From positions 1 through 64,000 of the forward strand of contig URAJ01000006.1 in assembly GCA_900545715.1 (NCBI GenBank): a stretch of DNA of 64,000 bases, written 5' to 3'. Shown here one piece after another: positions 5,723-39,226 of the stretch. The first letter of the stretch is position 1. The number at the start of each line of letters is the position of its first letter. The stretch comes from an uncultured Opitutales bacterium (GTDB taxonomy: Bacteria; Verrucomicrobiota; Verrucomicrobiia; Opitutales; Intestinicryptomonadaceae). The translations under genes and the position numbers were made by a program. The notes below the pieces were generated by a model. The model ran no database searches, was not told where the DNA came from, and saw only the letters and a program-made list of their open reading frames with translations.

Positions 5723-5831
5723 TTCATTTGACGATTCGGATTTCAGATATAGAAAATGCCGAAAATGCGAAATTCGCGGGAGCTTAGGCAAAACCGCATT
5801 TAAGAGAGTTTTTTACTTTGAGGAAAAAATT

Positions 5832-6698
5832 ATGAAAGTCTATATAAACGGAAAATATTACGAAAAGGACGACGCGAAAGTGTCGGTGTTCGACCACGGT
5901 TTTTTGTACGGCGACGGTATCTTTGAGGGTATCCGCCTATATAGCGGAAACGTGTTTAAGCTCGACAAACACATAGACAGGCTTTTCCGTTCCGCCCGCG
6001 CAATAATGCTCGATATGCCGTGGACGAAGCAGCAGATAATCGACGCCGTTTGCGACGCATGCCGCACAAACGGGCTTCAAAACGGCTACATACGCCTTGT
6101 CGTGTCCCGCGGCAAGGGAAAGCTCGGGCTCTCTCCGTTTTCGTGCGAGGATCCCCAGCTTGTAATAATCGCCGACGAAATACAGCTTTATCCGCAAGAA
6201 CTTTATGAGTGCGGCTTGAAAGCCTTGACAGTTCCCACGCGCAGGAACTCGCAGGCGGCGCTTCCGCCCATGGTTAAGAGCTTGAATTACCTCAACAATA
6301 TTCTCGCGAAAATCGAGGCCCACAATTCAGGATACGAAGAATGCCTGTTGCTCAACAATGAGGGGTATGTTTCCGAATGCAGCGGAGACAACGTATTTAT
6401 AGTTTTCGACAACAAGCTGATTACGCCCCCGATAAGCTGCGGCTCGCTCGGCGGCATGACGCGCGGAACTGTCATAGAGCTCGCCAAGTCTCTCGACATA
6501 GATTTTGACGAAAAACCGATTACGCGCTTCGACATCTGGACTGCCGACGAGTGCTTCCTTACCGGAACAGCCGCCAAGCTCATTCCGCTTGTAGAGCTCG
6601 ACAAGCGCGTAATAGGCGACGGCAAGCCCGGCAAAATCACAAAGCGCCTGATAGACGCATTCAACGAAGTAGCCCCGAAGATAGGCGTGCATATCTAA
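5832..6698 (+). CDS. ilvE: Branched-chain amino acid aminotransferase (class IV, PLP)
   Basis: A 288-residue fold-type IV aminotransferase that exchanges amino groups between glutamate and the 2-oxo acids of Val, Leu and Ile. The N-terminal MKVYINGKYY and VFDHGFLYGDGIFEGIR are typical of IlvE. The PLP lysine is Lys149 in MVKSLNYLNNI, and ECSGDNVFIV follows as expected. D-amino-acid transaminase and aminodeoxychorismate lyase share this fold, but the GIFEGIR and SLNYL motifs favour IlvE. ATG 5832 has GAGGAAAA just upstream. An in-frame extension of 41 codons back to 5709 is GC-poor, Cys/Arg-rich and overlaps the GH43 stop, so it is rejected. A strong terminator follows. It acts in the same pathway as ilvC 3 kb downstream but is not in an operon with it. 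Confidence 0.88.
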   Translation: MKVYINGKYYEKDDAKVSVFDHGFLYGDGIFEGIRLYSGNVFKLDKHIDRLFRSARAIMLDMPWTKQQIIDAVCDACRTNGLQNGYIRLVVSRGKGKLGLSPFSCEDPQLVIIADEIQLYPQELYECGLKALTVPTRRNSQAALPPMVKSLNYLNNILAKIEAHNSGYEECLLLNNEGYVSECSGDNVFIVFDNKLITPPISCGSLGGMTRGTVIELAKSLDIDFDEKPITRFDIWTADECFLTGTAAKLIPLVELDKRVIGDGKPGKITKRLIDAFNEVAPKIGVHI

Positions 6699-6742
6699 CA
6701 GAGTTGCGGTCTATGCGCTTTTGCGCGGGCATTAAAATTTAA

Positions 6743-6770
6743 GGGACGCCATTTGGCGTCTCTTTTTTTT
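6743..6770 (+). terminator. Rho-independent terminator after ilvE
   Basis: GGGACGCC and GGCGTCTC pair over eight positions (one G-T) around an ATTT loop and are followed by a run of T. Confidence 0.9.
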
Positions 6771-6846
6771 CGCGCCAGTAGTTTTTTTTAGAATAACGGC
6801 GGTAAAATTGTGCGGGTTTAATTAAGCCTTGTGGGGGGGGGCCGTA

Positions 6847-6865
6847 AATTTTTATCATAAAAATT
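6847..6865. repeat. 9-bp inverted repeat, possible operator
   Basis: AATTTTTAT and ATAAAAATT flank a single C, making a near-continuous AT palindrome. It follows directly on a run of nine G (6833-6841). It lies in the 320-bp space between the ilvE terminator and the thioesterase gene, which holds nothing else I can identify. Its tight centre suits a protein-binding site better than an RNA hairpin. Confidence 0.35.
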
Positions 6866-7092
6866 CGGCAAATGGATTTTTATGCGGGCACATTTTTTTT
6901 TTCGATTTGGCATTAAAGAAATCAAATAGAAATGCGATGTAGCCGCTGACTTTTACAATAAAAATATTTTTACGATAATAAATTCGCGCCGCATCGAGAT
7001 TAAATAGTGGAGCGAAAAATAAAAATTTTATATGAAGCAGGGCTATATATTTGTCTTGCGATTTAGCGCCGATGGGAGAAGTTATTTTACAT

Positions 7093-7476
7093 ATGCCAAG
7101 TACAGACAACGACTCTTTTGCAAAGAAACTTGAATTTGAGGTTTTGGAAAGCCGCTTTGGATATTCGCGCGTAAAGGGCAGGGTGAAGCCGGAATTTCTG
7201 AACGGGCTTGGAATAGCGCACGGCGGATATTTGTTCTCAATGGCGGATTTTGCGCTTGCGTTAGCCTCCAATACCGACGAACGCTCGGCAGTCAGCGCGA
7301 GCGCCTCTGTAAACTACATAAGCCCATGCCCGGCCGGCGCGGAAATCACTGCGGAGGCAAAATGCACGTTCTCTGACGAGAAGGGCGCAATATTCGATGT
7401 CCGCGTTTTTGGAGAGTCCTCGGAAAGACCTTTTATGATTTTTCAGGCGCGCGCAATTTTTAAGAGAAAGAAGTAG
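7093..7476 (+). CDS. PaaI-type hotdog thioesterase
   Basis: A 127-residue hotdog-fold protein of the PaaI/YbgC-like acyl-CoA thioesterase group. The motif NGLGIAHGGYLFSMADFALA (residues about 36-55) contains the HGG turn and the central-helix Asp used for catalysis in this group. The following SASASVNYISPCPAGAEI strand is also typical. It probably hydrolyses a small or aromatic acyl-CoA in the cytoplasm; the substrate cannot be read from sequence. ATG 7093 has GGAGAAG 12 nt upstream. ATG 7072 and a TTG at 7051 are possible alternatives. It stands alone between the ilvE terminator and the oxidoreductase gene. Confidence 0.8.
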   Translation: MPSTDNDSFAKKLEFEVLESRFGYSRVKGRVKPEFLNGLGIAHGGYLFSMADFALALASNTDERSAVSASASVNYISPCPAGAEITAEAKCTFSDEKGAIFDVRVFGESSERPFMIFQARAIFKRKK

Positions 7477-7503
7477 TATCCCGTTTTTAGCAGATAAAAA
7501 TGG

Positions 7504-7533
7504 TTGACTAATTAATAAAACGTTAAGATATTT
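7504..7533 (+). promoter_or_regulatory. Possible sigma70 promoter for the Gfo/Idh/MocA gene
   Basis: TTGACT at 7504-7509 and GATATT at 7528-7533 with an 18-bp spacer. The -35 is good and the -10 only fair. The leader would be about 85 nt. Confidence 0.35.
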
Positions 7534-7623
7534 GTAGAGTTCAACGGCGGTACGCATATCCCGGGTGATGGGGGTTTGTCATTTAACGTCGCAGGACAAC
7601 GTCAATTCAACAATTATAATAAT

Positions 7624-8964
7624 ATGGATAGAAGAAGTTTTGTAAAAAATAGTGCAGTAATAGGAGCAGCGGCGGCATTGCCCCGTTTTAGTTTTGCGCA
7701 GGTTAAAGGCAGCGACAGAGTCAAAGTGGCGCTCGTAGGCTGCGGTGGCCGCGGAACGGGAGCTGCATGCAATATGATTGCAGCCGACCCCAATGTAAAA
7801 TTCGTTGCTCTTGGCGACCTATTCAACGGAAGGCCCGACAGAGCCGCTAACAAGATTTATGAATTTGCCAAAAAGACTGTCGGCGAAGCGAAGGCCTCCG
7901 AGATAATCGACACTTCAAAAGTAAAGAAATTTGTAGGTTGGGATAATATTGACCAAGTTCTCGCAGAGGATGTTGATTTGGTTATCGACGCAACCCCGCC
8001 GGTATTCCGCACCCCCCACTATGAAAAGATAGTTGCAGCCGGGAAGCACGCCTTCCTCGAAAAGCCGGGCGCTGTGGACGTAATCCAGGGCCGCAAGATG
8101 TACGAGCTCGCCAAGGAGGCGGAAAAGAAGGGTCTTTGCGTTGTATGCGGCAACCAGCGCCGCTACGACAACCGCTACCAAGACTTGGTAAAGCGCATGC
8201 AGGACGGCGAAATAGGCGAACTCCTAGCCGGACAGTGCTATTGGAACAACGGCGGCTATATTGGCGGTTCTGCCGAAGGAGGCCCTTGGGGCGGCGGCAA
8301 GGAGGGAACAGAGGACACGCTCGAATACCAGATACGCAACTGGTGGAGCTTCATCTGGGTTTCCGGCGACCATATTGTCGAGCAGCACGTCCATAACATC
8401 GACGTATTGATGTGGGCGTTTGGCGACGACCGCCTCCCAATCGAAGTGACGACAGCTCTCGGCGGCAGAAGCACTGACTTGCCTTGCCCGCGCTTTGGCG
8501 ACAGATTCTCGCACTTCGCAATCGACTTTGATATGGGCAACGGCCTTCGCATGGAAAGCTATTGCCATCAGGATCCGAATACGTCCCCGAACGTCAGCGA
8601 GAGAATCGTTGGTTCTAAGGGCATATTCCAGGGATTGCGCCTGACCGACCTCAAGGGTAAGACGATATACGCTCCCGCAAAGCTCGAGCTCGACCCCTAT
8701 ATTGCCGAACACAAATATCTGCTTTCTGCAATACGCAGCGGCAAGAGGGTAAACGAGCTAAAGAACCTCATGAATTCCAATATGGCCGCTATCGCCGGAA
8801 GAATGAGCGCTTTCTCCGGAAAGAGGTTCAAGTACGAATGGATGGTCAAAAAGTCCACGGAAGACATAGTTCCCAAGAATGTCGATTTGATGGGCAAGAC
8901 GCAGGATCTGAGCTTGAAGAATCCGGTATCGGTTCCCGTTCCCGGAAAATACAAGCTTGTATAA
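7624..8964 (+). CDS. Gfo/Idh/MocA-family oxidoreductase with Tat signal
   Basis: 446 residues. The N-terminus MDRRSFVKNSAVIGAAAALP is a twin-arginine signal (RRSFVK) followed by a short hydrophobic stretch, so the folded enzyme is probably exported with its cofactor. Next comes a Rossmann fold with VKVALVGCGGRGTGA for NAD(P) binding, then EKPGAVD, the usual EKP motif carrying the catalytic-region Lys, and a C-terminal alpha/beta domain. Family members oxidise or isomerise sugars and inositols, and Tat-exported versions are very common in Verrucomicrobiota and Planctomycetota. The substrate is unknown. ATG 7624 was chosen because it begins the Tat motif; the 16 codons before it look non-coding. 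The gene has its own terminator and no operon partners. Confidence 0.88.
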   Translation: MDRRSFVKNSAVIGAAAALPRFSFAQVKGSDRVKVALVGCGGRGTGAACNMIAADPNVKFVALGDLFNGRPDRAANKIYEFAKKTVGEAKASEIIDTSKVKKFVGWDNIDQVLAEDVDLVIDATPPVFRTPHYEKIVAAGKHAFLEKPGAVDVIQGRKMYELAKEAEKKGLCVVCGNQRRYDNRYQDLVKRMQDGEIGELLAGQCYWNNGGYIGGSAEGGPWGGGKEGTEDTLEYQIRNWWSFIWVSGDHIVEQHVHNIDVLMWAFGDDRLPIEVTTALGGRSTDLPCPRFGDRFSHFAIDFDMGNGLRMESYCHQDPNTSPNVSERIVGSKGIFQGLRLTDLKGKTIYAPAKLELDPYIAEHKYLLSAIRSGKRVNELKNLMNSNMAAIAGRMSAFSGKRFKYEWMVKKSTEDIVPKNVDLMGKTQDLSLKNPVSVPVPGKYKLV

Positions 8965-9014
8965 TCCATTCATTGATGCCTGAAGCGGGGTTGTTTCCCG
9001 CAGATGTAAATTTA

Positions 9015-9047
9015 GAGGTCGCCAATTATCTTGGCGGCCTTTTTTTT
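9015..9047 (+). terminator. Rho-independent terminator
   Basis: AGGTCGCCAA and TTGGCGGCCT pair over ten positions with one T-G, followed by eight T. Confidence 0.92.
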
Positions 9048-9048
9048 A

Positions 9049-9447
9049 GATAGCCTATTCGGTAATCGAACCGTAGAATTCTAAAAAAATCTTTTTTATA
9101 GTTTTTTAGTATAAAATTTTTTATATGCGAAAAAAATGCAATCTAAGATACGTTGGTTGCACAGAAAGAATCCAAATAAAGAAGCACTGAATGCAAGATG
9201 ATTCCAATATTTTATCGCGTATTTTTCCGCTTAAAAAAATCGCAAAAGAAATAAAATACGCGGAGAATCGCTTTGAATTTTTTTGCAATGGAATGTCTGC
9301 AAAGTGTTTATTTTAGGGAGATGGAGGCTTATCGGGCGCCTGCAAAAATACAAAGTTTTTGAGTGTTAAGGAAGTGTCATAAAATAGTTGCAATTTATTT
9401 TTTAAGCATCATATTTCTTTAACTAAATTTTTTAACAGGAAAAAAAT
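9049..9447. other. AT-rich leader region upstream of ilvC with an inverted repeat
   Basis: About 400 bp without a gene. It holds a 10-bp inverted repeat, CGCGTATTTT at 9216-9225 and AAAATACGCG at 9253-9262, with a 27-nt spacer. A weak promoter candidate is TTGCAA at 9388-9393 followed 16-17 bp later by CATATT. No leader peptide with a run of Val, Leu or Ile codons was found, so classic attenuation is not supported. Confidence 0.4.
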
Positions 9448-10533
9448 ATGGCACCAGCTAAGGTATATAAGGAAAAGGACGCTAATAAAAACATCCTTAA
9501 AAATAAAACGCTCGCCGTAATCGGCTATGGTTCCCAGGGGCACGCGCATGCGCTCAACCTCAAGGACAGCGGTTACAATGTAATCGTAGGGCTCTATCCC
9601 AAGAGCAAGTCGATAGAGGTGGCCAAGAAGCAAGGCTTCAAGGTTCTCCCCACAGCCGAAGCAGTCAAGGCCGCCGACATCATAATGATTGCCGTACCGG
9701 ACATGATTCAAGCCGATCTCTATGAAAAGGAAATCGCGCCGAATCTCACAAAGGGCAAGACTCTCGTGTTCTTGCACGGGCTCTCAATCCACTCCGGCCT
9801 CATTAAAGTGCCTGCCGGCATAAATGTAATTATGGTTGCCCCCAAGGGCCCCGGCCACACTGTTCGTTCGCAATACCTCGAAAACAAGGGCGTACCCGCC
9901 CTCATCGCTGTTGCGCAGGGCGGAAAAGACGCAAAGGCAATCGCCTTGGCATGGGCTGACGGCATAGGCGCAACCCGCGCGGGAGTAATCGAAACCACTT
10001 TCAAAGAAGAAATGGAAACAGACCTCTTCGGCGAACAGGCGGTTCTCTGCGGCGGCGTGAGCGCGCTAATCCAAGCCGGTTTTGAAACTCTCGTTAAAGC
10101 CGGATACAAACCCGAAATGGCATATTTTGAATGCTGCCACGAGCTCAAACTTATCGTTGACCTCATAAACCAAAGCGGCATAGCCGGCATGAGGTTCTCC
10201 ATATCCGAAACTGCAAAGTACGGTGATGTCACCCGCGGTCCGCGCGTAATCACCGACAAGACAAAGAAGGAAATGGAAAAAATCCTCAAAGAAATCCAGT
10301 CCGGCAAGTTTGTGAAAGAATGGGTTGCCGAATACAAGAGCGGCCTCAAAAAGTACAACAAACTCCTTGCTGAAGGCGAAAAGCACCCGATAGAAAAAGT
10401 CGGCCAGCGTCTGCGCGCGCTAATGCCGTGGGCTGCAAAGCAGAATATCAAGGGCGCACAAGCCTCCTATTCCGCTGTTGTGGAAGCGCCCAAGGCGCCT
10501 GCGAAGGCTCCCGCTAAGAAGGCGAAAAAATAG
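9448..10533 (+). CDS. ilvC: Ketol-acid reductoisomerase
   Basis: 361 residues, matching the short class I enzymes. It converts 2-acetolactate or 2-aceto-2-hydroxybutyrate to the dihydroxy acid with NAD(P)H and Mg, the second step of Val/Ile synthesis. The Rossmann motif [13 protein letters not shown] is at residues 23-35, then GLYPKSKS in the cofactor-specificity loop, [11 protein letters not shown], and the metal-binding [14 protein letters not shown] with the second-domain [11 protein letters not shown]. All are intact. The C-terminus carries an extra Lys/Ala/Pro tail, [15 protein letters not shown], which the enzyme does not need. The start is supported by AGGA eight bases upstream. It is monocistronic, with a terminator directly after it. 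IlvBN and ilvD are not in the window. Confidence 0.96.
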
Positions 10534-10685: not shown

Positions 10686-11552
10686 ATGAAGAAAATAAGG
10701 CTCGCAACACGTTCAAGTCCGCTGGCAATGGCGCAAGCGCACATGGCCGCCAAATATATAGGCTCCCGCATTCCAGGGGCGGAGTTTGAAATAGTTGAGG
10801 TAAAAACTTCCGGCGACAAGCGCCAAGATTGGTCTCTTGAAAGGTACGGCGGAAAGGGGCTTTTCACAAAAGAAATAGAAGAATCTCTACTTTCGGGCGA
10901 GGCCGATGTTGCCGTCCACAGCGCGAAAGATCTCCCCACGGAAACTCCAGAAGGGCTGGTATTGGCAGGTTGTATGCCGCGCGACGGTTGCGCCGATGTC
11001 TTGATTCTCCGTTCAGGGGTACAGGTTCCTGAACTGATAGCCTCTGGAAGTCCGCGCCGCCGGGCGCAGCTAAAAAAAATTTTTCCACAGGCAGTCTGGA
11101 CCGAGTTTAGGGGAAACGTGCATACGCGCCTTAAAAAACTTGCCGGAGGTTTTGCCGACGCTTCGGTGCTTTCCCTCGCCGGTCTTGAAAGGCTTGGAAT
11201 CGAGTCTTACGAGGGGTTGGAATTTAAGCCGATAAAGCTTGACGTATGCGTTCCTGCGGTGGGGCAGGGAATAATAGCGCTTCAATGCCGCGCAGAGTAT
11301 GCCGAAATTTACCGTCCGATTACCGATTCGCAGACGAACATGGCGTTCGCGCTTGAGCGGGAGTTCTTGAAGTCGCTTGGCGGCGGTTGCCAGAGTGCGT
11401 ATGCCGCAAATTGCGAAGGCGATGTATTGAGGATATACCACGAGGAGTGCGGGTTTCAAAAAATCGTGTTTCCGGAAGGCGGAGATTTTGCGTCGAGAAT
11501 GGAGATAGTGCGCGATTTAGCCGGCGGATTGAGGGAAAAGAAACTGCATTGA
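10686..11552 (+). CDS. hemC: Hydroxymethylbilane synthase (porphobilinogen deaminase)
   Basis: 288 residues, slightly shorter than the usual 305-320. It joins four porphobilinogens into hydroxymethylbilane for haem and related tetrapyrroles. The N-terminal RLATRSSPLAMAQA, then GGKGLFTKEIE, VHSAKDLPTE with the catalytic Asp region, ASGSPRRRAQL and FRGNVHTRLKKL are all diagnostic. Cys235 in LGGGCQSAYAA is the attachment site of the dipyrromethane cofactor. The shortening lies in the C-terminal domain after that Cys, which is reduced but not disrupted. A TATAAA at 10656-10661 may be its -10 box, although no good -35 is seen. No other haem genes are adjacent. Confidence 0.93.
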   Translation: MKKIRLATRSSPLAMAQAHMAAKYIGSRIPGAEFEIVEVKTSGDKRQDWSLERYGGKGLFTKEIEESLLSGEADVAVHSAKDLPTETPEGLVLAGCMPRDGCADVLILRSGVQVPELIASGSPRRRAQLKKIFPQAVWTEFRGNVHTRLKKLAGGFADASVLSLAGLERLGIESYEGLEFKPIKLDVCVPAVGQGIIALQCRAEYAEIYRPITDSQTNMAFALEREFLKSLGGGCQSAYAANCEGDVLRIYHEECGFQKIVFPEGGDFASRMEIVRDLAGGLREKKLH

Positions 11553-12299: not shown

Positions 12300-12977
12300 A
12301 TGAAGTCCATGAAACATGTATTACTATCATTTGTAGCATTAGCTTTTGCAGCGGCAGCCTTTGCGGCTCCTTCCAAAGAAGACCCCATAATAATCCAACA
12401 TTCTAAGCTCGACGCAAAACGCTTGCAGCCCGGCGCAGTGCCGAGTTCAAGCGGGCAGTGGACCCGCATAGAGATTCCGTTGTTTGCGAAGGAAAATCCC
12501 GACAACAAGGCGAACAACCAAAAGTGGATTCGCAATGTGGACGTCGATTTGATATTGGTGTATAAGGATCAGATGGCGACCGACAAGCGTTCGCTGGACA
12601 GCCTTATTGTATTGCGCTCAAAGGCGAAGTTGTTCGCCTTGGAAATAAACAAGAAGACGCCGGTAGTGTTCTATATTCCTTCCGAGGCGTACGAAATATA
12701 CAGGCTTGCGGCGGATCCGTTTGCGTGGAAGATAGAGGTGTCGATAAACGGTACGCCGATAGAATTGACGAAGCAAAACATAAAGACAATGCTTTCGAGG
12801 AACATTTACAAGAATGATGATCCGAAAGCGGTGTACGAATCGTTTATGAAATTGGTGGAGAAATCGGCCAAGGTAAACGACGGCGTGCTGATGTCTTTGC
12901 CTGAGTGCCCGTTCAACGTAAAGTTGTACGAGTATGGTAAATCGCAGTTGGTGCCGAATTACATTACGACAAAATAG
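12300..12977 (+). CDS. Amuc_1102-like exported protein, first gene of the pilus-like cluster
   Basis: 225 residues with a clean signal peptide ending at AFAAP (about residue 22). The rest is beta-rich: paired strands such as WTRIEIPLF and NVDVDLILVYK, a helix with YESFMKLVEKSAKV, and a C-terminal strand. It is not a pilin: there is no prepilin peptidase motif. Size, signal peptide and place directly before a PilM homologue match Amuc_1102 of Akkermansia, which has an immunoglobulin-like fold. The assignment rests on synteny and general features, not on an alignment. A 160-bp gap separates it from the pilM-like gene, so it could be a separate transcript. An ATG nine bases downstream is an equally good start. 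Confidence 0.7.
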   Translation: MKSMKHVLLSFVALAFAAAAFAAPSKEDPIIIQHSKLDAKRLQPGAVPSSSGQWTRIEIPLFAKENPDNKANNQKWIRNVDVDLILVYKDQMATDKRSLDSLIVLRSKAKLFALEINKKTPVVFYIPSEAYEIYRLAADPFAWKIEVSINGTPIELTKQNIKTMLSRNIYKNDDPKAVYESFMKLVEKSAKVNDGVLMSLPECPFNVKLYEYGKSQLVPNYITTK

Positions 12978-13137
12978 GGCCGAGGTACAGCGCGCAACAA
13001 TGTGCGGCAGAGCGCGTTGCATGCGCGCGGTGCAATTTGTGCGAAGTAAATGCAAAAAATGCTTTACTAAGCGGCTGAAAAGGTATTAGATTTATTTTCA
13101 TTCCGAATTTTTATTTTACCCCCGTTCACATTCAGAA

Positions 13138-14772
13138 ATGAGTTCTAAAAGCAAGCTTATAATAAACTGCGGAGCAACCCACGTTAGCGCGTCGGAGTTT
13201 GGAGTATCCGCCGGCCGTCTTGTTTTGGAAAGTTTTCAGGTGCAAGAACTGAAATACGACTATTCCAACCAGGAAGAATGGCTATCGGAACTTGCGGCGA
13301 CGCTAAAGATGATGAGAGTATCAGGTAAGGCGACAGTAATAGCGCCGTCGATGCTCCTGCTCACAAAGACAATAAAAATACCCCATGTAGACGAAGCCCG
13401 CAGGGCCGAGGTTATACAATTTGAGGCGGAAAAGAATATTCCGTACCCGATAAACGAGGTTTCGTGGGATTACGAAATAATATCCGACGACGGAGTCGAA
13501 ACGGAAATATTCCTGACCTCGATGAAATCGACGGCTGCGGACGATTTTTGCATGGCGCTTTCGCAAGCCGGCGTAATACCAGAGTCGATAGAGGCGTCCT
13601 CAATACTCGACTACAACGCGTGGAAGTATTGCGGGCTTGAAAACGACGTAATTCTCCTAAATGTAGGGTCGCGCTTTACGAATTTGATGATAGCGCGCGA
13701 GGACGGAGTTTTCGTGCGAAGCATACCTGTTGGAGGAAATTCGATAACGCAGGCAGTTGCCGATTCGCTCGGGCGCGACTTTGTGACAGCCGAGGAGCTG
13801 AAGCGCGGATTTTTTGCGAATGCGTCGCTTTCCTCGAATGCGGGAGCGGAGCACTTTACAAATGCGGCGACGTCCGTGATGCGCAGGATAGGTGTTGAGA
13901 TAAAGCGCTCTATAGTAAATTACAGACGTACTTCGCGCGTCGAAGCCCCGAAGAAAATATATTTGTGCGGCCGCGGGTCGCTCTTGCCCGGGTTTGCCGA
14001 ATTTTTGGCGGAAGACCAGAAGATGAGCGTGGAATACTTTGACGCTCTGGCGAATGTATCGGTGAGTCCGCGTGTAAACCAGGAATTGTTGTCGAGCTGC
14101 GCGTCGCAGGTGAGCGAAATAATCGGCGAGGCTGCAAGGCTGGTAATTCCCGGCTTGATGAGCGTAAATCTGCTGCCCAAGCACATTGTTGAAGAAACGG
14201 CATTCGCAAAGACGAGGCCGCTGATGGTGTTGGGTGCGGCGATATTGGTGGCCGCAACATTGCCGCCAATGTTCTTATTTACAAAATCGATAAGCGAGAA
14301 GACTGAAGCTACCGCCAAATTCCAGTCGATGATGCTCCCGATAGAGGACAGGGCTGCGGAGTTCAAGAAGAACGGCGAGACTGCGAATTCTTTGGAGGCA
14401 AAAATAAACGGTTTGGAAGGTTTGGCGAAATCGAAATCTAACTGGATAAATCTGTTTATAGATATAGAGAAGCGTCTGATGGAGCAAAAGGACGTCTGGC
14501 TCGACAATCTGAGAGTGCACCGCGCAGTAAAGAACGGCGTGCAGGAGTACAAGCTCGAGTTGACGGGAAGGCTTTTGATAAGAGACGTGGATCCGGAAAA
14601 TTTGGAGGCGTACGATACGCAGAAGGCAATAGACAGAATAACAAAGCTGCTGAATTCCTTTGTAAGTTCCGAATTTTTGAAGTCGTTTGAGAATGTGAGG
14701 ACCGACCCGTCGAATCCCCGCATTTTGAAGTTTGACTTTACTCTTGTTGTAAACCCCGACAAGCCGATATAA
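13138..14772 (+). CDS. PilM-PilN fusion, type IV pilus-like inner-membrane platform (Amuc_1101-like)
   Basis: 544 residues. Residues 1-335 are an actin-like PilM domain: LIINCGATHVSASEF at the nucleotide-binding start, a conserved AEVIQFEAEKNIPYPINEV segment, a second phosphate loop around LNVGSRFTNLMI, and CGRGSLLPGF. Residue 341 begins MSVNLLPKHI, which matches the (I/V)NLLP peptide at the N-terminus of PilN that normally docks into PilM. A membrane helix follows (about 360-382), then a coiled segment and a ferredoxin-like PilN periplasmic domain. In Proteobacteria PilM and PilN are separate proteins; here they are one chain. It should anchor the PilO-like and secretin partners encoded next. 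The gap to the next gene is 19 nt. Confidence 0.88.
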   Translation: MSSKSKLIINCGATHVSASEFGVSAGRLVLESFQVQELKYDYSNQEEWLSELAATLKMMRVSGKATVIAPSMLLLTKTIKIPHVDEARRAEVIQFEAEKNIPYPINEVSWDYEIISDDGVETEIFLTSMKSTAADDFCMALSQAGVIPESIEASSILDYNAWKYCGLENDVILLNVGSRFTNLMIAREDGVFVRSIPVGGNSITQAVADSLGRDFVTAEELKRGFFANASLSSNAGAEHFTNAATSVMRRIGVEIKRSIVNYRRTSRVEAPKKIYLCGRGSLLPGFAEFLAEDQKMSVEYFDALANVSVSPRVNQELLSSCASQVSEIIGEAARLVIPGLMSVNLLPKHIVEETAFAKTRPLMVLGAAILVAATLPPMFLFTKSISEKTEATAKFQSMMLPIEDRAAEFKKNGETANSLEAKINGLEGLAKSKSNWINLFIDIEKRLMEQKDVWLDNLRVHRAVKNGVQEYKLELTGRLLIRDVDPENLEAYDTQKAIDRITKLLNSFVSSEFLKSFENVRTDPSNPRILKFDFTLVVNPDKPI

Positions 14773-14791
14773 CGGTCAAAGAATTTGTCTG

Positions 14792-15898
14792 ATGAAATAC
14801 TTTAAGAAATACCCTATATTTTTTATAGCAATGTTCGTATTGATAGCGCTGTTTATAGCCGGCGCTGCGTACGATGTAATGCTTTATAATAACGATACGG
14901 CGTCGCTTGGGAAGCTGAATAGCGTGATGAGGCAGTACGACGATGTGCTTGCGACAGACCCGACCCAGCCCTCGATAGACGCTTCCGCGAAGAACATAAA
15001 GGAGCTTGAAAAGCACCTTGCCGACTTGGAGAAGGACTTGACCCGCGAGAGCGAGCATATATTCAAGCCTCTTACGGCCGAAGAAGGGTTCCAGTTGCGC
15101 GAGCAGTTGCGCGGTATGGTAAACTCATGGCGCGCCGAGGCGAAAAAGCGCGACATATACGTACCCGATGAAATGGACTTTGGGTACAAAAAGTACGTGG
15201 CGCCGACCGCCGACTCTCCGAAAGACGAGGCGATGCCAGCGATATGGAAACAGGTTTGCGTTTTGGACTACATCAACCAGAAACTTTTCAATTGCAAATC
15301 TAAAGAATCCCCCATGGCGATATTGAACGTCCAGCGCGAGATACTGCCTGAGGAAGGGATAAAAGAGGAAAAAAAGACGCGCCGAGTAAGGGCGTCTGCG
15401 CGATCGAAGTCGTCGGCTGCGCTGAGGGGCGACAACTTTAAGATAGACGAAAATATAACCGCCCGCAAGCCCGGCAGTTTGAACACTCTGGCATACAGGT
15501 TTGTGTTTACCGGGCATACTGATGTGCTCCGCAGGTTCTTGAACCAGTTGAAGGATTTCGACGCAATGCTCGTTGTAAGGAGCATAGATGTGAAACCCGC
15601 AGATACGTCGCTAATAATGATGGCGAACCCTGAGGAGGCCCTTGCCGAGGAAACGTCTGATGCGGCCGATGCGTTTGCATCGACAGGTTCCGAAGATGGC
15701 GGTGAAGCGCCTGCCGCGCCGGTGATAGACGAAAATAAAGTTCCTGTTGTGACGGACAACATTTCGGAATTCACAGTGGTGATAGAATACGTAGAAGTGG
15801 TCAAAGACGCGGCAAAGCCAGGTGATAAAAAGGACGCCGACAAGAATGGCGCAGCCGATAAAAAGGCAAAGGCGGCCACAAAACCAAAGAAACAATAA
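14792..15898 (+). CDS. Amuc_1100-like (PilO-type) membrane-anchored protein
   Basis: 368 residues. A short basic N-terminus is followed by one membrane helix (residues about 8-28) and a long helical region (NIKELEKHLADLEKDL), then a ferredoxin-like domain including YRFVFTGHTDVLRRFLNQL and a strand SEFTVVIEYVEVV. This is the plan of PilO and of Amuc_1100, the Akkermansia protein reported to signal through TLR2. Two features differ. A basic linker around residues 195-215 (KKTRRVRASARSKSS) is present, and the last 30 residues are a low-complexity Lys/Ala/Asp tail. Gene order supports the call, although sequence divergence is evidently large. It probably packs against the PilN part of the upstream fusion. 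Confidence 0.75.
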   Translation: MKYFKKYPIFFIAMFVLIALFIAGAAYDVMLYNNDTASLGKLNSVMRQYDDVLATDPTQPSIDASAKNIKELEKHLADLEKDLTRESEHIFKPLTAEEGFQLREQLRGMVNSWRAEAKKRDIYVPDEMDFGYKKYVAPTADSPKDEAMPAIWKQVCVLDYINQKLFNCKSKESPMAILNVQREILPEEGIKEEKKTRRVRASARSKSSAALRGDNFKIDENITARKPGSLNTLAYRFVFTGHTDVLRRFLNQLKDFDAMLVVRSIDVKPADTSLIMMANPEEALAEETSDAADAFASTGSEDGGEAPAAPVIDENKVPVVTDNISEFTVVIEYVEVVKDAAKPGDKKDADKNGAADKKAKAATKPKKQ

Positions 15899-15913
15899 AG
15901 AAGCGGCACAGAA

Positions 15914-16780
15914 ATGAAATACTACGATAAGATATTTTTTGTAATCGCCGTGATAGTGGCGGGTTTGTCTTGCGGATATTATTTTATGAACGAACCGAAG
16001 GGCGAACTATTGGAAGCGCGCGTGCAAACATTAGAAAAGAAATTGCCCGCCGGCATACCGTGGAAGAAGATAATAGTGCCCGAATTGAAAGTGACGTCGA
16101 TAGAATGGCCCGAAGTCAGGGCGCAAGACGAAGCCGGAAAATGGTTCTTCCAAGTATTTACGCCGCCCCAGATATGGGTTGACAAGAAGGGAAACTTCAT
16201 GACCGAGTCGCCTTATTACAAGGAGGTCGCGAGGCAGTCGTTTGCATTGAAGTATGTAGGCGTATCCAACGAGCCGTATCCGATAAAATACCTCGGATAT
16301 TTTGGGACAAAAGCGGAGCCGATAATCCAGTTTGAGAATACGGCTACGAACCTATCATTCATAGGTAAATTGAATGAGGAGATAATTGCGTCTGCTCCGT
16401 CAACCGGCAAAAAAATCAACCTCGGGCTGACTCCCAAGAAATTCGAGATAAAACGGGTTAAGAACGATAAAAACAATACAATATCGGACATTGTGACCGT
16501 AGTGTTGTACGATAAATCCCTTGGGAAGGACGTGACGATTTACTCCAATAAGGAGACCGTCATAGACGACCGCAGGAGAATATCGTTCTCTGCTCCCGAC
16601 GGCAGTGTATGGCATGTCAAGGCGCCAGGCGAATCGCGCAAGATTGGGACAGCTACATACAAGGTGAAGTCGATAGATTTTGATAAAGGCAATGCCGTAA
16701 TTGAGATGATTCCGGACAATGCCGATATCGAACCACAAACAATGAACCTAAGCGCGGCGGGAGTGACACCCGTCAAATAA
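15914..16780 (+). CDS. Amuc_1099-like membrane-anchored protein (PilP-like position)
   Basis: 288 residues with one N-terminal membrane helix (about residues 6-24) and an extracytoplasmic beta-rich body. It contains repeated short strands such as IIQFENTATNLSFIGKL and KKINLGLTPKKFEIKRV. In type IV pilus operons the place between PilO and the PilQ secretin belongs to PilP, which links the inner-membrane platform to the secretin. In Akkermansia it is Amuc_1099. No PilP lipobox is present, so the link to PilP is positional only. The gene lies 15 nt after the Amuc_1100-like gene and 70 nt before the secretin gene, on the same strand, and is surely part of the same operon. Confidence 0.7.
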   Translation: MKYYDKIFFVIAVIVAGLSCGYYFMNEPKGELLEARVQTLEKKLPAGIPWKKIIVPELKVTSIEWPEVRAQDEAGKWFFQVFTPPQIWVDKKGNFMTESPYYKEVARQSFALKYVGVSNEPYPIKYLGYFGTKAEPIIQFENTATNLSFIGKLNEEIIASAPSTGKKINLGLTPKKFEIKRVKNDKNNTISDIVTVVLYDKSLGKDVTIYSNKETVIDDRRRISFSAPDGSVWHVKAPGESRKIGTATYKVKSIDFDKGNAVIEMIPDNADIEPQTMNLSAAGVTPVK

Positions 16781-16850
16781 TTGAAAATAATTCTTTAAAA
16801 AACCCCAAAAAGTGTTAACGTCCATTTAACAAATTATAAATACAGCGAAT

Positions 16851-19640
16851 ATGAAAATAAAGACAACCCAACGAAAAGCGGCATTTGTCGCGGCGATATT
16901 AGCTTCCGCCGTGACGGCAAGCTTTAGCTATGCCAAGCCGGACCAGACCCAAGAGAAAATCCGTCTTATGGTTGCGGCCGTACAGGCGCGTGACGCGGGC
17001 GATCTTAAATCTTCCAAGCAATCGCTTGAAGAGTTATTGAAGATTGCGCCCAATGACGAAGGCGTACAGCGTATGCTTGCCGACGTGAATAAAGACATAG
17101 AGCGTCAGGCAAAAGGCGAAACACCTGTGCTTGTTGGTACAAAAGCCGCGCAAGAAGAAGCAGCCGCTAAGGATGCCGAAGCTGCGGAAGGCGAAGCAAA
17201 AGTCGAGCCCGTCGATGCTGCAATGTCCGACGCTCTGCGCAAACAGCAGCTGCAAGTTATAGCGGCATTTGATTTGATTGACGAAGCGTACGATCTCATG
17301 GACGACGGCAACTGGGATGAAGCCGCTAAGAAATTGTCATTTGCCCAGGAAAAACTCCCTGAAGAATCCTATTCCCCGATAGCCGACGAGGCTCGTTCAG
17401 AGCTCAATAGGGCGAAGGCTGCAATGGCGAAGTCCCGCGCGAAGATTGCAATGTCTGAAAGAGACACAGCCGCTGCAAAGTCTTTTGCCGCCGAGTACGC
17501 CGCTGCTGAAGAAAGCAAGGACGCCGGCAACGCGTTTGTAGAAGAGGTTGAAGAATTCACAGCCAATCCTTACAACAATTCGATATCCGATATAAGCCCG
17601 GATTACGCCACTCGCCAGAACAAGATTGAAAACCTTTTGGAAAAAGGGCGCAGGCAATATCTGTATGGCGACTATCAGGGAGCGCGTGCGACTTTCCGCC
17701 AGATTGAAACGCTTGACGCCGACAATATACAGGCGAAAGCGTATCAGCGTTTGATTTCTGAAAAGCTTGCCGACCGCGGCCGCTTGACTTATCTGGCAAC
17801 CCGCGAAGCGATGATGGACGAAGTAAGCAAGGCGTGGCAGCGCCCGCAAGTTTACACCGGCACGACAGTCGATAGAGGCGGCGCGAGAGCCGATTCCGTC
17901 ATCGACAAAAAACTCGCCGAAATCATCATCCCGAACGTGAGCTTCCCCGCTCCGGGCGTGACACTCGCCCAAGCGATAAACACTCTCTCTATATTGTCGG
18001 TTGAATACGATAAGTCGAACGACGCGAAGAAGGGTGTTAACATAGTTCTTTTCGGCGATAACGCTTCCGAAGCAAAGCCGGTAGTTCTCACACTCCGCGA
18101 TCTTTCCCTCGGTCAAATACTCGACTGGGTCACCCAGCAGGCCGGTTTCCAATACGATATTGAAAAGGATACAATCGTAGTCCGCAAGGCAATGGATAAC
18201 AGTGTCGCTTCGATGGACACTCTCGACTTCCCGCTCCCGACTTCGACTGTTATGCGCATGATAGGCTTCAAGGCTGCGGTTGGCGAGTCCGGCGATTCGG
18301 ACAATCCGTTCGGCGGCGGCGGCGGTGGTGCTGCAGCTGGCGCTGGCGACGGCAAGGAAGAGGCTATCAAAAACTTCCTCGTTAAAGCCGGTGTAGAGTT
18401 TGGTCCCGGAGCGACTGTCGCGTTTGACGGTTCAAAACTTTGGGTCACGAATACTCGCCGCAACCTCGATAAGGTTCGCAACATTCTCTTGCGTTATAGC
18501 GAAACCAAGCAGGTTGAAATCGAAGCCAAATTTATGGAAGTCAACCAGGGCGTCTTGAAGGAACTCGGATTCAACTGGAATGTTTCCAGGAAGAATGCTG
18601 ATGGCTCTTACAGCACTCTGTTCTCCACAGTTGGAAGAAACACAACCGGTCTGATAAGCACATATAACAATCGTACGCTTGCCGACTCTATAACAAGCGC
18701 GAGTGCCGGATCTACTCCGATAACAATCTTGAAGCCCGCCCTTGAGGCGACACCAGACGTTCCGAATCCGTACACTGTCGAACCTGTTGTTCCGATTTTG
18801 CCTTCAACTATAAATATGGCTTCCGGCGCGGCTCAGGCTGCCAACACAGTTCTTGGTGTTATAAACGGCTATGATGTAAGTTTGATAGTCAATGCTCTCG
18901 AACAGCGCCAGGGTTCAGACCTGCTCTGCGCTCCGAAGGTGACGGTTATATCCGGCAGCACTGCTTCGATAACGGTTTCGCAACGTATGCGTTATCCGGA
19001 ATCATGGGGCGACGTTCAATCTAACGTAGGTTCTTCGTCAGTCAGCGTCGGTGACACTCAAACTTCTTCCGCTGGTGTAACTATCACCCCCGGTACTCCT
19101 CAGGACTTCACTTCGGTTGACGTTGGTGTGTCGATGGAAGTAACCCCGAATGTTGAAGAAGACGATAGCATCAACCTCGTACTCAATCCGAATGTAACGG
19201 AATTTGAAGGGTTCATGGAATACGGCGGCGTTGCGGTCGCTATATCTTCCGGAACAACCGTGACGGTTCCCTCCGGATTCATTCAGCCGGTGTTCTCGGT
19301 CAGAGAAGTTAAGACTACTGTGACGGTATTCGACGGCGCGACGGTTGTAATGGGCGGTTTGACTCGTGAAGAAGTCCGCACAATCAACGACAGCGTTCCG
19401 ATTCTCTCCGATATCCCGTGGATTGGCAGACTCTTCCGCTCGAAGGGTGAATCCCGCCAGAAGAGGAATCTGTTGATATTCGTCACTGCGAACAGAATCT
19501 CCCCCGGAGGCAGCGTTGGCCGCGAACAGTTCCAGGATATGCGTCCCGGAAGCGTCTACCAGAATCCTGTCATAGTTTCTCCTGGTGGTGCTGTACATCG
19601 CGTACTTGAAGACGAAGCTACTGAAACTGTCACTCGCTAA
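16851..19640 (+). CDS. Secretin, PilQ/GspD-type outer-membrane channel (Amuc_1098-like)
   Basis: 929 residues. A signal peptide (1-28) is followed by an unusually long N-terminal region with TPR-like helices, at about 35-90 (ARDAGDLKSSKQSLEELL) and 270-310 (YLYGDYQGARATFRQIETL). Next is an STN/N0 domain at about 350-450 and an N1-type domain interrupted by a Gly-rich loop at 488-505. The secretin barrel runs from QVEIEAKFMEVNQG (about 554) to MGGLTREEVRTINDSVPIL and IPWIGRLFRSKG (about 832-870). It should form the gated outer-membrane ring through which a pilus or secreted protein passes. Codon use differs slightly from its neighbours, with many CTC and TCC codons. TATAAA at 16835-16840 could be an internal -10. 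Two terminators follow. Confidence 0.92.
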   Translation: MKIKTTQRKAAFVAAILASAVTASFSYAKPDQTQEKIRLMVAAVQARDAGDLKSSKQSLEELLKIAPNDEGVQRMLADVNKDIERQAKGETPVLVGTKAAQEEAAAKDAEAAEGEAKVEPVDAAMSDALRKQQLQVIAAFDLIDEAYDLMDDGNWDEAAKKLSFAQEKLPEESYSPIADEARSELNRAKAAMAKSRAKIAMSERDTAAAKSFAAEYAAAEESKDAGNAFVEEVEEFTANPYNNSISDISPDYATRQNKIENLLEKGRRQYLYGDYQGARATFRQIETLDADNIQAKAYQRLISEKLADRGRLTYLATREAMMDEVSKAWQRPQVYTGTTVDRGGARADSVIDKKLAEIIIPNVSFPAPGVTLAQAINTLSILSVEYDKSNDAKKGVNIVLFGDNASEAKPVVLTLRDLSLGQILDWVTQQAGFQYDIEKDTIVVRKAMDNSVASMDTLDFPLPTSTVMRMIGFKAAVGESGDSDNPFGGGGGGAAAGAGDGKEEAIKNFLVKAGVEFGPGATVAFDGSKLWVTNTRRNLDKVRNILLRYSETKQVEIEAKFMEVNQGVLKELGFNWNVSRKNADGSYSTLFSTVGRNTTGLISTYNNRTLADSITSASAGSTPITILKPALEATPDVPNPYTVEPVVPILPSTINMASGAAQAANTVLGVINGYDVSLIVNALEQRQGSDLLCAPKVTVISGSTASITVSQRMRYPESWGDVQSNVGSSSVSVGDTQTSSAGVTITPGTPQDFTSVDVGVSMEVTPNVEEDDSINLVLNPNVTEFEGFMEYGGVAVAISSGTTVTVPSGFIQPVFSVREVKTTVTVFDGATVVMGGLTREEVRTINDSVPILSDIPWIGRLFRSKGESRQKRNLLIFVTANRISPGGSVGREQFQDMRPGSVYQNPVIVSPGGAVHRVLEDEATETVTR

Positions 19641-19663
19641 TCCAGTATAATAAACCTCTTTAA

Positions 19664-19692
19664 AGTGCCCGTTTAAACGGGCGCTTTTTTTT
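19664..19692 (+). terminator. Rho-independent terminator closing the pilus-like cluster
   Basis: AGTGCCCGTT and AACGGGCGCT pair almost perfectly and are followed by eight T. Confidence 0.93.
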
Positions 19693-21049: not shown

Positions 21050-22573
21050 CTATTTGCCGGCCGTGACATTTACGCATTCGATATTTAACACCTTTGCGAT
21101 TTTTTGTATCTCATCAGCGTGGTGCCCAATACCGAGTGCAAAGTGGTGGGTTGGCCCTTCCATGCACCAGCTCCGCAAGAATGTGCGAATATCAGGCTTA
21201 AACTTAGCGTGGGTGTTTGTATTCCCCGTGGGCGGAATGGCTCCCGCAACAGACTCTCCTTCAGCCACTATAAATTTAAATTTTCCGTCGGCTTTTACGC
21301 CTATTGAGAGTATGGTAATGGGCCCTTCCTTAATCTTGAACTCAACTCCCGCGCCCGCTCCGGGCTTGCCGTGGTATTTTTTTAATGACCTCAACACGGG
21401 CTTGCCGTCGGCAATATTTAGATGGTGGGGGCCGTCATGCCCGACAAGAACTGTCCCTTTGTTGAAGTCTATCGGGTGAAATTCGGCAAAGCTTCCGCCT
21501 ATTTCGAGCCTGTCCATTATCATCATTGCAATGCAATTTTTGATGTCAAATTCTCCGCACATTGGGAATCCGGCGGCGGTGAGAAGCGAATTGCCCACTA
21601 TCAGGTTTGTGACGAGCTCGCGCATTTTGGAGCCGGGAAGGGCTTCGTAATAGTATGCGAGCCCGTCGAGCTTCCTGTCGGCCGCGAACTTTTCAAGGGC
21701 AACAGCCGCCCTCGCCGCGACATCGAGATCCTTGTCTGTAAGCTTTTGGGTGATTGGGTCTGATACGGGATCCGGGGTGTCGAAAAATGAGAGAATCCGC
21801 TTTTTCATAGCTTCGACTGCGTCTTTATCGTCGGCGAGATAATGCTTTAAAATTTCGTCGGGCTCGCAAACTGCGACATGGCAGCCGAATGTGGCGGCGA
21901 CTGCTGTTGGGTCGGTCTGCATATCGTACATCGCTTCCAATACGTGACCCATTAACCCTATGCGGGCATAGCGCAAGTCGTGCAAAACCTTTGCAACCGA
22001 GCACCATTTCGAAATTTCCGCGTCTGCGAGTTTATCGCCCTCGCGCATTCCTATTATAATATCGTCCACGGGGTTTCCCATGCGCACGGCGACGTCCGCA
22101 AATTCAGGAACTGCGCACAAATCGTCGTTGCACAGCTGTATAAATGTAGTTGCTTTTTCGTACGGCATTGCGCTTTGCGGCTGCAGGGCCACCAAAACTA
22201 TCGGAATGGTAAGTTCTTTTGCCATTGCCGCGAAAGTCGCCGAGGTTGCGTAAGTCACCATATCGACAAAGAGAAGGTCGAGGTTCGACCGCTTGATTTC
22301 GTCGAGTGTCTTGCGCGCGCTTTCAGCGTTATCGACAAGCCCGAAAGAAAATGTTTTTACGCCGTTGGATTTGACTTTATTTTCAAACGTATCGAGTTTT
22401 TTGAGCATTACGTCTTTAAGGCCTTCAAATTGTTTCCAATATGTATCGAGCCCGACGCCGACTATCCCGACATTTGCAGTCAGCGGCTTTCTTCGTTCTA
22501 CCGTGCTTTTGGGTTCTGCCGACGCCACAACGCAAAGGGCGCATGTGCAAAATATGAGTATGATTCTTTTCAT
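21050..22573 (-). CDS. L-fucose/L-arabinose isomerase-like protein with signal peptide
   Basis: 507 residues. From about residue 35 it has the layout of the AraA/FucI isomerase superfamily: an N-terminal Rossmann-like domain starting NVGIVGVGLDTYW, a middle domain, and a C-terminal domain with GHDGPHHL (about 400) and EGPTHHFALGIGHHADEI near the end. These hold candidate metal-binding His and Glu residues. AraA and FucI convert aldoses to ketoses with Mn. Here, however, residues 1-19 are a textbook signal peptide (MKRIILIFCTCALCVVASA), so the protein should be outside the cytoplasm, where ordinary catabolic isomerases do not work. Whether it is an enzyme or an exported binding protein is open. 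Its terminator is at 20917-20957. Confidence 0.75.
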   Translation of the reverse strand: MKRIILIFCTCALCVVASAEPKSTVERRKPLTANVGIVGVGLDTYWKQFEGLKDVMLKKLDTFENKVKSNGVKTFSFGLVDNAESARKTLDEIKRSNLDLLFVDMVTYATSATFAAMAKELTIPIVLVALQPQSAMPYEKATTFIQLCNDDLCAVPEFADVAVRMGNPVDDIIIGMREGDKLADAEISKWCSVAKVLHDLRYARIGLMGHVLEAMYDMQTDPTAVAATFGCHVAVCEPDEILKHYLADDKDAVEAMKKRILSFFDTPDPVSDPITQKLTDKDLDVAARAAVALEKFAADRKLDGLAYYYEALPGSKMRELVTNLIVGNSLLTAAGFPMCGEFDIKNCIAMMIMDRLEIGGSFAEFHPIDFNKGTVLVGHDGPHHLNIADGKPVLRSLKKYHGKPGAGAGVEFKIKEGPITILSIGVKADGKFKFIVAEGESVAGAIPPTGNTNTHAKFKPDIRTFLRSWCMEGPTHHFALGIGHHADEIQKIAKVLNIECVNVTAGK

Positions 22574-24562: not shown

Positions 24563-26442
24563 GTGAATAAACTCTTAATAGTTTTATTTTCAGCCGTTTT
24601 GGCTCTGTGCGCCCACGCGGGCGTTGCAGGAAAGTTTTTTGCGTACCGTTCTTTCTGGCCTGAAACCGAGGCGATGAAGCAGTTTGCCGACATAGGTGTC
24701 AATCTTTACGCCGTTATGCCGTCGAACTCTTTTAACAGCCTCGGGGAACCCTATTGTAAATTTCCCCCCCTTCTGGGTGTGGGACGAAACGTACCTTTGG
24801 GAAAATGTTGACGCGCAGTTCGACGTCGTCCTAAAAGCCAACCCGAACGCCCGTTTCATTTGCATGGTAGATATAAACAGCCCCTTGTGGCTCGTCCGCA
24901 GGCTCGATAAGAAATATGGTTTTGGCGGCGACAGCTACCAGCATATTTCAAATGCGCTGTGTATTCCGGAATGGAAAAACATCACAAAAAAAATGCTCCG
25001 CGCCTACGTGCTGCACATGGAGGAAAAGTACGGAGACAGGATAGTGTCGTACATAGTGGCCGGCGGTGGCACGAGCGAATGGTACTGCAACTCTCAGGGA
25101 TACGCGAATGTCCCAAAGCGCAATGCATGGTATAGATGGCTGAATAAAAACGGTTTTCCAAAGTGGGAAGTTCCCAGCCGCGAGCGCATGGACTCCCCCG
25201 CAATCGACGGAAATTACTTCGACCCTAAGACCCAGCGCGCGGAAGCCGAGTATTCGAGATTTCTCGAAGAGCTGATTTCCGACGGAGTCGATGAATTTCT
25301 CGGCGAGGTAAAAAAAAATAGTGGGCGATAAAAAGCAGGTTGGCGCATTTTGCGGATTTATACCATTGCGCCTGTACGGCAAGCTGGACAATTCGAGAAC
25401 GTTCGCGTCGAAGTCGGTTGACTTCGTTGGCAGCCCCGGCGGATATTTTAACCGCGACATAGGGCTTGGCGGCGGAATATCGTCGCCGCGGAAGTCGGTT
25501 GACCTTTACGGCAAGCACTGGTTTCAGGAAATAGACCATAGAACGCACACGTACAACGGTAAGCTTTCCCCATATGTTCAAATAGGGGGAATACACGCAT
25601 CGGGCGCAAAAAACCAAGCCGAGACAAACGCGATTTTAAAGAGGGAGTTTTCTTTGGCGGCGGTAATGGGGAATTCCCTTTGGTGCTTTGACATGTGGGG
25701 CGGGATTTTTAAGACTCCCGAGACAATGGAGCTCGTAGGCAAATCCTACGAAATATGGAAAAAGTACAAGGACGCCCCGCTCGACTACCGCGCGGAGATA
25801 GTAATGGTAATCGATCCGGACAGCGCTTTTTATATGAAAAATCCCTTGAAAATCGAGCGCATGATTAAAGCGCTTTATTCATGCGGAGCTCCGTTTGATT
25901 ATATTCTTTTCGACGACATTGAAAATCTGGATTTCTCAAAATATAAAATGGCAGTCTTCCCGTGGGGATATTCAATAACCCCAGAAAAGCGGAAGATATT
26001 GGAAAATCGAGTGATGAATTCGGGTAGGACTGTCGTGTTTATGGACGCCGCGGGAATGTCGGACGGCGCGCGCGCAGACCCCGCAAATGTCGAGAAGCTA
26101 ACGGGCTTTAAGTACAAGACCAAAGGTGTGTCCGAAAAGGACATGGGCGGCTGGAAAAGCGTATATGGCGGAAGTATTACGGACTTTGACAAGAATTCCA
26201 TAATGAGATTGGCCCGCGAAGCCGGTGTCCATATATATACGGACGAGCCCTTGCCCGTGTACTCAAACGGAAAACTTGTTGCAGTGCATGTGAAGGAGGG
26301 CGGACTCAAAAAAGTGCACCTGCCAAAGAAAGCCGGAATAGCAAAAGAGTTGTATAGCGGTAAGACTGTTGTTGAAAATGCCGATTCGTTCGAATACGAC
26401 TTCGCCTCTCCGGACACGGCTTTGTTTGAGATTTCGGATTAA
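24563..26442 (+). pseudogene. Exported GH-A-like glycoside hydrolase, frameshifted twice at homopolymers
   Basis: Three overlapping frames read as one 625-residue protein if one base is removed at each of two runs. At C7 (24764-24770), the first frame's GEPYCKFPP continues as FWVWDETYLWENV in the next. At A9 (25310-25318), FLGEVKK continues as IVGDKKQVGAFCGFI. The start is GTG 24563, opening a signal peptide MNKLLIVLFSAVLALCAHA. The N-terminal part looks like a TIM-barrel hydrolase; the Glu in AGGGTSEWYC is a candidate acid/base. The C-terminal part (for example ALYSCGAPFDYILFDDIENL and AVFPWGYSITPEKRK) resembles the Rossmann-like trimerisation domain of GH42 beta-galactosidases. Codon character is normal on both sides of each shift, so the event is recent or a sequencing artefact. 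Confidence 0.75.
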
Positions 26443-38936: not shown

Positions 38937-39191
38937 TTTTTTTGTTGGATAAAAAGAATTGCCGACCAATAGCGCGCGAAATCCGCGCATTTTTGTTTCG
39001 GCGGCACTTATTTTTTGTATATTTCTTTAAGCATTTAGGGTGCGCAATGAGGCATATTTTTAATTAGTTTTAAAATAATAAAATTCATTATGATTGGCAG
39101 AAATTGCAGTTGGGAAACTAAATAATTACAATAGTGGGCTATATGGTGATAAATAAAGGCAGGTGCTTGTAAATAGTGGTAATTACAAACC

Positions 39192-39219
39192 TTGACTTTA
39201 TAATAAAATATGCTATAAG
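39192..39219 (+). promoter_or_regulatory. Strong sigma70 promoter, probably leaderless
   Basis: TTGACT (39192-39197) and TATAAG (39214-39219) each match consensus at five of six positions with a 16-bp spacer. Transcription should begin near 39226, one base before the ATG at 39227. No ribosome site is present. A TATAAT at 39199-39204 without a -35 partner is an alternative -10 that would give a 16-nt leader. Confidence 0.6.
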
Positions 39220-39226
39220 CATTTTT

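Follow-up and report, generated by a model that had tools for sequence, protein, structure and literature searches.

A probable type IVa pilus alignment and secretin cluster of the Amuc_1102–1098 type in an uncultured Opitutales bacterium

The 64,000-nucleotide stretch analysed here (the window; contig URAJ01000006.1 of an uncultured Opitutales bacterium) carries at 12300-19640 five plus-strand open reading frames (ORFs) in a row, with intergenic gaps of 160, 19, 15 and 70 bp. We label them 1102, 1101, 1100, 1099 and 1098 after their Amuc counterparts (Table 1). By hydropathy, 1102, 1100, 1099 and 1098 each have a hydrophobic segment at the N-terminus; that of 1101 is internal. Very probably the cluster supplies a type IVa pilus with its alignment complex and outer-membrane pore, the motor genes being sited at other loci.

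Table 1. Features of the cluster and its downstream border
Feature	Position	Strand	Length or basis
Amuc_1102-like exported protein, immunoglobulin (Ig)-like beta fold	12300..12977	+	225 aa
Amuc_1101-like PilM-PilN fusion	13138..14772	+	544 aa
Amuc_1100-like inner-membrane protein, PilO position	14792..15898	+	368 aa
Amuc_1099-like single-pass beta protein, PilP/GspC position	15914..16780	+	288 aa
Amuc_1098-like secretin, PilQ role	16851..19640	+	929 aa
Terminator-like hairpin, 11 pairs and T tail	19662..19687	+	pattern scan

Identity and order of the five genes

The 1101 protein matches Pfam PilM_2 (E 9.6e-21) and NCBIfam Amuc_1101_fam (E 4.6e-83, 280 of 650 bits, below the curated cut-off). 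Its profile (A3) aligns to PilM of PDB entry 3jc8 at profile positions 3-355 (E 1.8e-71) and to PilN of the same entry at 360-494 (E 1e-9). An actin-like PilM part is followed by a hydrophobic helix (residues 362-380) and a PilN-like part. On this two-domain reading of its sequence, 1101 is a PilM-PilN fusion, one protein supplying both the PilM and the PilN of a type IVa pilus machine. Pfam PilN (PF05137) alone misses the PilN part of 1101 and was found in just 3 of 38 members. Across 15 whole genomes it matched at E<=1 in 10 and over its cut-off in 5; none of the places listed lies in the relatives' Amuc-type cluster, and two are near a gene set resembling a type II secretion system (T2SS).

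In the PilO position, 1100 matches Amuc_1100_fam (E 1.2e-20, 74 of 180 bits, below the curated cut-off), carries a hydrophobic helix at residues 9-27 and gives a T2SS GspM match at E 0.013. Its profile (A4) aligns to the Amuc_1100 structure 6lad (E 1.4e-30), and Pfam PilO (PF04350) matches just 1 of 38 homologues (E 9.1e-6). Amuc_1100 is named PilO in a 2024 paper (PMC11573778).

The secretin 1098 matches Pfam Secretin (E 2.8e-36), with weak STN (E 0.0056) and N-terminal TPR_2 (E 0.0019) matches below cut-off. Its best NCBIfam match is Amuc_1098_fam (E 2.9e-123, 413 of 750 bits, below the curated cut-off). GspD (E 1.8e-37, 129 bits) and MshL score slightly above PilQ (E 6.4e-32, 111 bits), none of them over its own cut-off. 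The protein fits the part of the PilQ secretin in a type IVa pilus machine.

The 1099 protein is predicted to be helix-anchored, without a classical lipobox, and its structure model has a helix at 3-42. The NCBIfam Amuc_1099 match is marginal (E 0.056, 13 of 50 bits); its profile retrieved weak, unrelated PDB rows alone, and Foldseek with the model gave no useful match. Its PilP role is tentative, and in the available part of a 2026 ISME J paper amuc_1099 and amuc_1100 are called uncharacterized (PMC13174399). Bacterial TSP3 repeats are matched by 16 of 38 aligned homologues (A5), which suggests calcium binding by the PilP-position protein; in the window version TSP3 gave no match at E<=0.01.

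The first protein, 1102, has a Sec-type N-terminus and the Ig-like beta fold of Amuc_1102. As a single sequence it matched no Amuc family of NCBIfam, and phmmer with the single 1102 and 1100 proteins against PDB gave nothing useful. Matches to SrfG (E 0.0012, 18.3 of 430 bits) and Ecotin (E 0.092, 13.2 of 22.2 bits) were rejected as chance. The likely role of 1102 is as an accessory, either in the periplasm or associated with the secretin. In the accessible part of the 2026 paper amuc_1102 is said to resemble an archaeal type IV pilin, and a figure legend draws it as a homotrimer (PMC13174399).

Gene order was read from all frames at 50 loci: the window, nine relatives and 40 phylum loci hand-picked down a ranked list, each with a strong 1101 match. 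The order 1102-1101-1100-1099-1098 is kept at 46 of the 50; because the loci were chosen for strong 1101, the count gauges how regularly 1101 is accompanied by the other four genes and is no measure of the cluster's frequency. The partial loci are L004, whose contig ends before 1098, and L070, L086 and L090, where 1102 was not found. These loci, with a further ten (L054-L063), were also the source of the profiles, which makes the E-values partly a matter of construction; the alignments used 47 of 55 sequences (A1), 15 of 18 (A2), 38 of 50 loci each (A3-A5) and 31 of 47 (A6). Independent of this are order, strand and the single frame match per locus (always for 1102, 1101 and 1100; 1099 twice in 4). 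The 1098 profile matched in more than one frame at 18 of the 50 loci.

An earlier reading of the window's letters (the original prediction) had recognized the Amuc_1102 to Amuc_1098 order, and the ORFs, the family matches and the 46 loci bear this out. In profile searches its likeness to Amuc_1098-1102 held for 1101, 1100 and 1098, was marginal for 1099 and failed for 1102 by single sequence. The relation it assumed between the folds of 1102 and 1100 and those of Amuc_1102 and Amuc_1100 was recovered.

Motor genes in relatives and across the phylum

No tblastn match at E<=1e-5 was obtained in the window with PilC, PilT and both ATPases from one relative (G001) as queries. A six-frame scan of the window for the prepilin motif found none; the motif misses some, since it gave 3 matches on the plus strand of L113, which has 5 N_methyl-type ORFs. 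Pfam on 35 window ORFs (not all ORFs were scanned) showed no further pilus gene. In this the original prediction, that no motor or pilin gene is adjacent, agrees with our searches. It had also proposed a motorless, stripped-down secretion or surface-anchoring machine instead of an ordinary pilus. That these searches found no pilin, ATPase, PilC or peptidase gene in the window would fit such a machine, as would the cell-surface location of Amuc_1100 reported in passages of Ottman 2017 (PMC5332112). We consider it extremely unlikely, given the motor genes found in all nine relatives and, in three further genomes, next to the cluster itself.

The genomes of the nine relatives stood in for the window's own. 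The nearest, Puniceicoccaceae bacterium Marseille-Q1082 (L001), shares 78% DNA identity over 7.5 kb, and the five proteins are 83-90% identical over aligned parts (1101 90%); the other eight loci come from five Opitutales, two uncultured Verrucomicrobiota and one Verrucomicrobiaceae. These relatives, too, point to Opitutales/Puniceicoccales as the probable origin of the window. Each of the nine genomes contains two PilB/GspE-type ATPase genes adjoining a PilC gene, an A24 peptidase, 4-10 N_methyl proteins and one strong PilM, the Amuc-type one. In G001, both ATPases of the pair have a Walker A motif. PilT exceeds its curated cut-off in eight, all but G003, whose assembly consists of many contigs. 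The nearest N_methyl gene seen to a cluster is about 12 kb away (G008). Since the relatives have motor genes, their absence beside the cluster most likely reflects gene scattering and not loss, and the window's own genome would carry them too.

The strongest evidence for one system that is split in the window's lineage is the linkage of cluster and motor in three genomes. L108 has on one strand pilB1-pilT-pilB2-pilC-1102-1101-1099-1098, with 1100 not called between 1101 and 1099. In L109, pilB1-pilT-pilB2-pilC is followed by a pair of pilin-type ORFs, by an ORF of 704 aa and by 1102-1101-1100-1099, the stretch ending before 1098. Of these pilin-type ORFs, one matches N_methyl (22.0 of 21.2 bits) and the second was judged by its GFTLVE start. 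L110 reads 1102-1101-1100-1099-1098-1098-pilB1-pilB2-pilT and ends there, pilC not being seen in it. In these loci a PilB-family gene is 5.0, 9.2 and 7.7 kb from 1101, the ATPase genes and pilT lie no more than about 10 kb from the cluster, and PilT scores 457, 461 and 435 bits (curated cut-off 319). Here pilB1 and pilB2 are working names, because in the pairs of G001 and L109 the best-scoring model is PilB for the first ATPase and GspE for the second, both below cut-offs. Five more same-contig cases of PilB-family and 1101 genes were noticed, 32-119 kb apart. At L110 the secretin genes form a tandem pair inside the cluster (5030-9692).

A rho gene, its identity supported by the curated cut-off (514 of 509 bits), occurs about 1.1-1.3 kb past 1098 at L066, L067, L083 and L094 among 49 other loci searched, and adjoins pilB1 in G001 (L111). 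Its position beside both 1098 and pilB1 may be left over from an earlier joint locus.

Across the phylum the Amuc_1101 model matched 187 of 194 genomes at E<=0.001 (15 over cut-off), and 169 at E<=1e-30, as read by eye from the table. A strong PilB-family match occurs in all 169 genomes with strong 1101 and in 18 of the 25 in which, again by eye, the 1101 match is weak (E > 1e-30) or missing (Fisher p 2.6e-7); the model used does not tell PilB from GspE, and 2 of 194 exceed its cut-off. PilT was compared in 57 chosen genomes (40 sampled, 10 Akkermansia-type with high 1101, 7 without strong 1101 and PilB). It was over cut-off in 49 of the 50 cluster-bearing ones (exception G145) and in none of the 7. 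The G120 stretch covers 1102, 1101, 1100 and the beginning of 1099. Alignment of its 1100 to Amuc_1100 6lad (E 1.7e-171) and of its 1102 to 7dsz (E 3.2e-132) marks G120 as Akkermansia or a close relative; this genome has PilT over cut-off and PilB-family matches.

Function of the cluster

Could the cluster instead act mainly in glycan uptake or in secretion of the T2SS kind, powered by a GspE-type ATPase? In its accessible text the 2026 paper states that MUL2, the Akkermansia locus Amuc_1098-1102, likely aids attachment 'similar to a secretion system' (PMC13174399). The higher score of the secretin for GspD than for PilQ and the GspE-type second ATPase in both genomes tested point the same way, and weigh against a type IVa pilus. 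Other evidence makes this use of the cluster quite unlikely. In 7 of the 9 relatives one contig carries another secretin together with an ATPase and a GspF of its own, and in two relatives a PilN-like protein is a few kb from this T2SS-like set on the same contig. In G003 the secretin, ATPase and GspF occur as fragments across two contigs, and G005 has a partial secretin match alone, near other ATPase and GspF-type genes. Since the T2SS-like set has its own secretin and ATPase, the ATPase pair and PilC are left with the Amuc-type secretin. PilM is a typical component of type IV pili, and PilT over cut-off stands beside the cluster in the three linked genomes and occurs in nearly all of the chosen cluster-bearing ones.

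A type IVa machine might also have DNA uptake (competence) as its purpose, not attachment or glycan capture, which would leave the machine itself the same. All nine relatives encode a ComEC-family protein, but so do 10 of 14 control genomes, and the 2026 paper, in the part available, ties MUL2 in Akkermansiaceae to particle attachment and the use of mucin (PMC13174399). We regard a competence purpose as rather unlikely, although less so than a T2SS-like use.

In the type IVa pilus that we favour, 1101 would form a cytoplasmic PilM ring with an inner-membrane helix and PilN part. By homology, PilM-PilN, 1100 and 1099 would connect the secretin 1098, across the periplasm, with PilC and the motor in the cytoplasm, the parts forming one machine. 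A PilB-type ATPase would extend the pilus and PilT retract it through the 1098 channel. The two extension-type ATPases, PilC, PilT, the prepilin peptidase and the pilins would be encoded at other chromosomal loci, and 1102 would be a lineage-specific exported Ig-like extra part.

Verrucomicrobiota may, as a more tentative suggestion, share an ancestral type IVa variant in which PilM and PilN are one protein, 1102 is a standard part and the loci are scattered in some lineages. If so, Amuc_1100 would sit in the inner membrane as an alignment protein of the PilO type, and another route (shedding, lysis, vesicles) would be needed to explain the host signalling and the surface location reported for it. 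On the PilO reading, the location of Amuc_1100 can be tested directly. In other genomes from the phylum, neighbouring genes link the cluster of this much-studied protein to a type IVa pilus.

Genomic setting and comparison with known systems

Upstream of the cluster lies a porphobilinogen deaminase gene (10686-11552) and downstream, on the minus strand, an L-fucose/arabinose isomerase-family gene (21050-22573). The latter protein has an apparent signal peptide, and the stretch is 79% identical in L001. The hairpin begins 22 bases past the last cluster stop codon; as the pattern scan found 13 sites against 12.0 expected in shuffles of the region, it is backed by position and length alone. tRNA and Rfam scans of the window found none. 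Overlapping plus-strand ORFs at 24696-25331 and 25321-26442, with no Pfam match at E<=0.001, resemble halves of one protein in different frames. A Sel1/TPR-repeat protein of 1494 aa with an apparent signal peptide is encoded at 53271-57755 on the minus strand. Two secreted proteins (39176-40840 and 48180-49616, plus strand) end in a tail of PEP, a hydrophobic stretch and arginine, which we take to be PEP-CTERM-like; the one at 48180-49616 shares 57% identity over 451 residues with an ORF close to pilT in G001 (L114).

Literature on the Akkermansia system, as far as the texts were accessible, records the five Amuc_1098-1102 proteins as enriched in the envelope fraction (Ottman 2017; PMC5332112), a cluster of type IV pili genes in which Amuc_1098 is PilQ (2023 review; PMC10688800), abundant PilQ, Amuc_1098 and Amuc_1099 (PMC9415379) and the MUL2 locus in Verrucomicrobiales (PMC13174399). 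Type IV pili genes are noted in a reduced-genome Opitutales family in passages of another paper (PMC12306168), and 'Opitut' is absent from the main text of the 2026 MUL2 paper in its available part (PMC13174399). Extension of the cluster to Opitutales looks new within the open-access literature searched, and no paper on a PilM-PilN fusion with secretin in Verrucomicrobiota turned up there. The novelty is modest, namely this fusion and 1102; the cluster is otherwise of known type.

Compared with MUL2, the window has the same five genes in the same order on one strand, sharing the 1102 fold and the 1101, 1100 and 1098 families. However, its four NCBIfam scores given above are all below cut-off, so its proteins are homologues and not filed as equivalogs. 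Identity of 1101 to its Akkermansia counterpart is 25%, the BLAST match of 1100 has E 0.002, and 1102 has no BLAST match below E 0.3 to the Akkermansia-type counterpart. The architecture is homologous to GspD/GspL/GspM/GspC of type II secretion, as the GspM and GspD matches of 1100 and 1098 show, whereas most relatives have the separate T2SS-like set with its own secretin. The canonical gene order of the type IVa alignment complex is PilM-PilN-PilO-PilP-PilQ. As in Myxococcus, Pseudomonas and Thermus, the window keeps PilM, PilN, a PilO-like protein, a beta protein and a secretin in this order, but with PilM and PilN fused, an extra Ig-like 1102, a 1099 predicted to be anchored by a helix instead of a lipobox, and motor genes that are unlinked in the nearest relatives.

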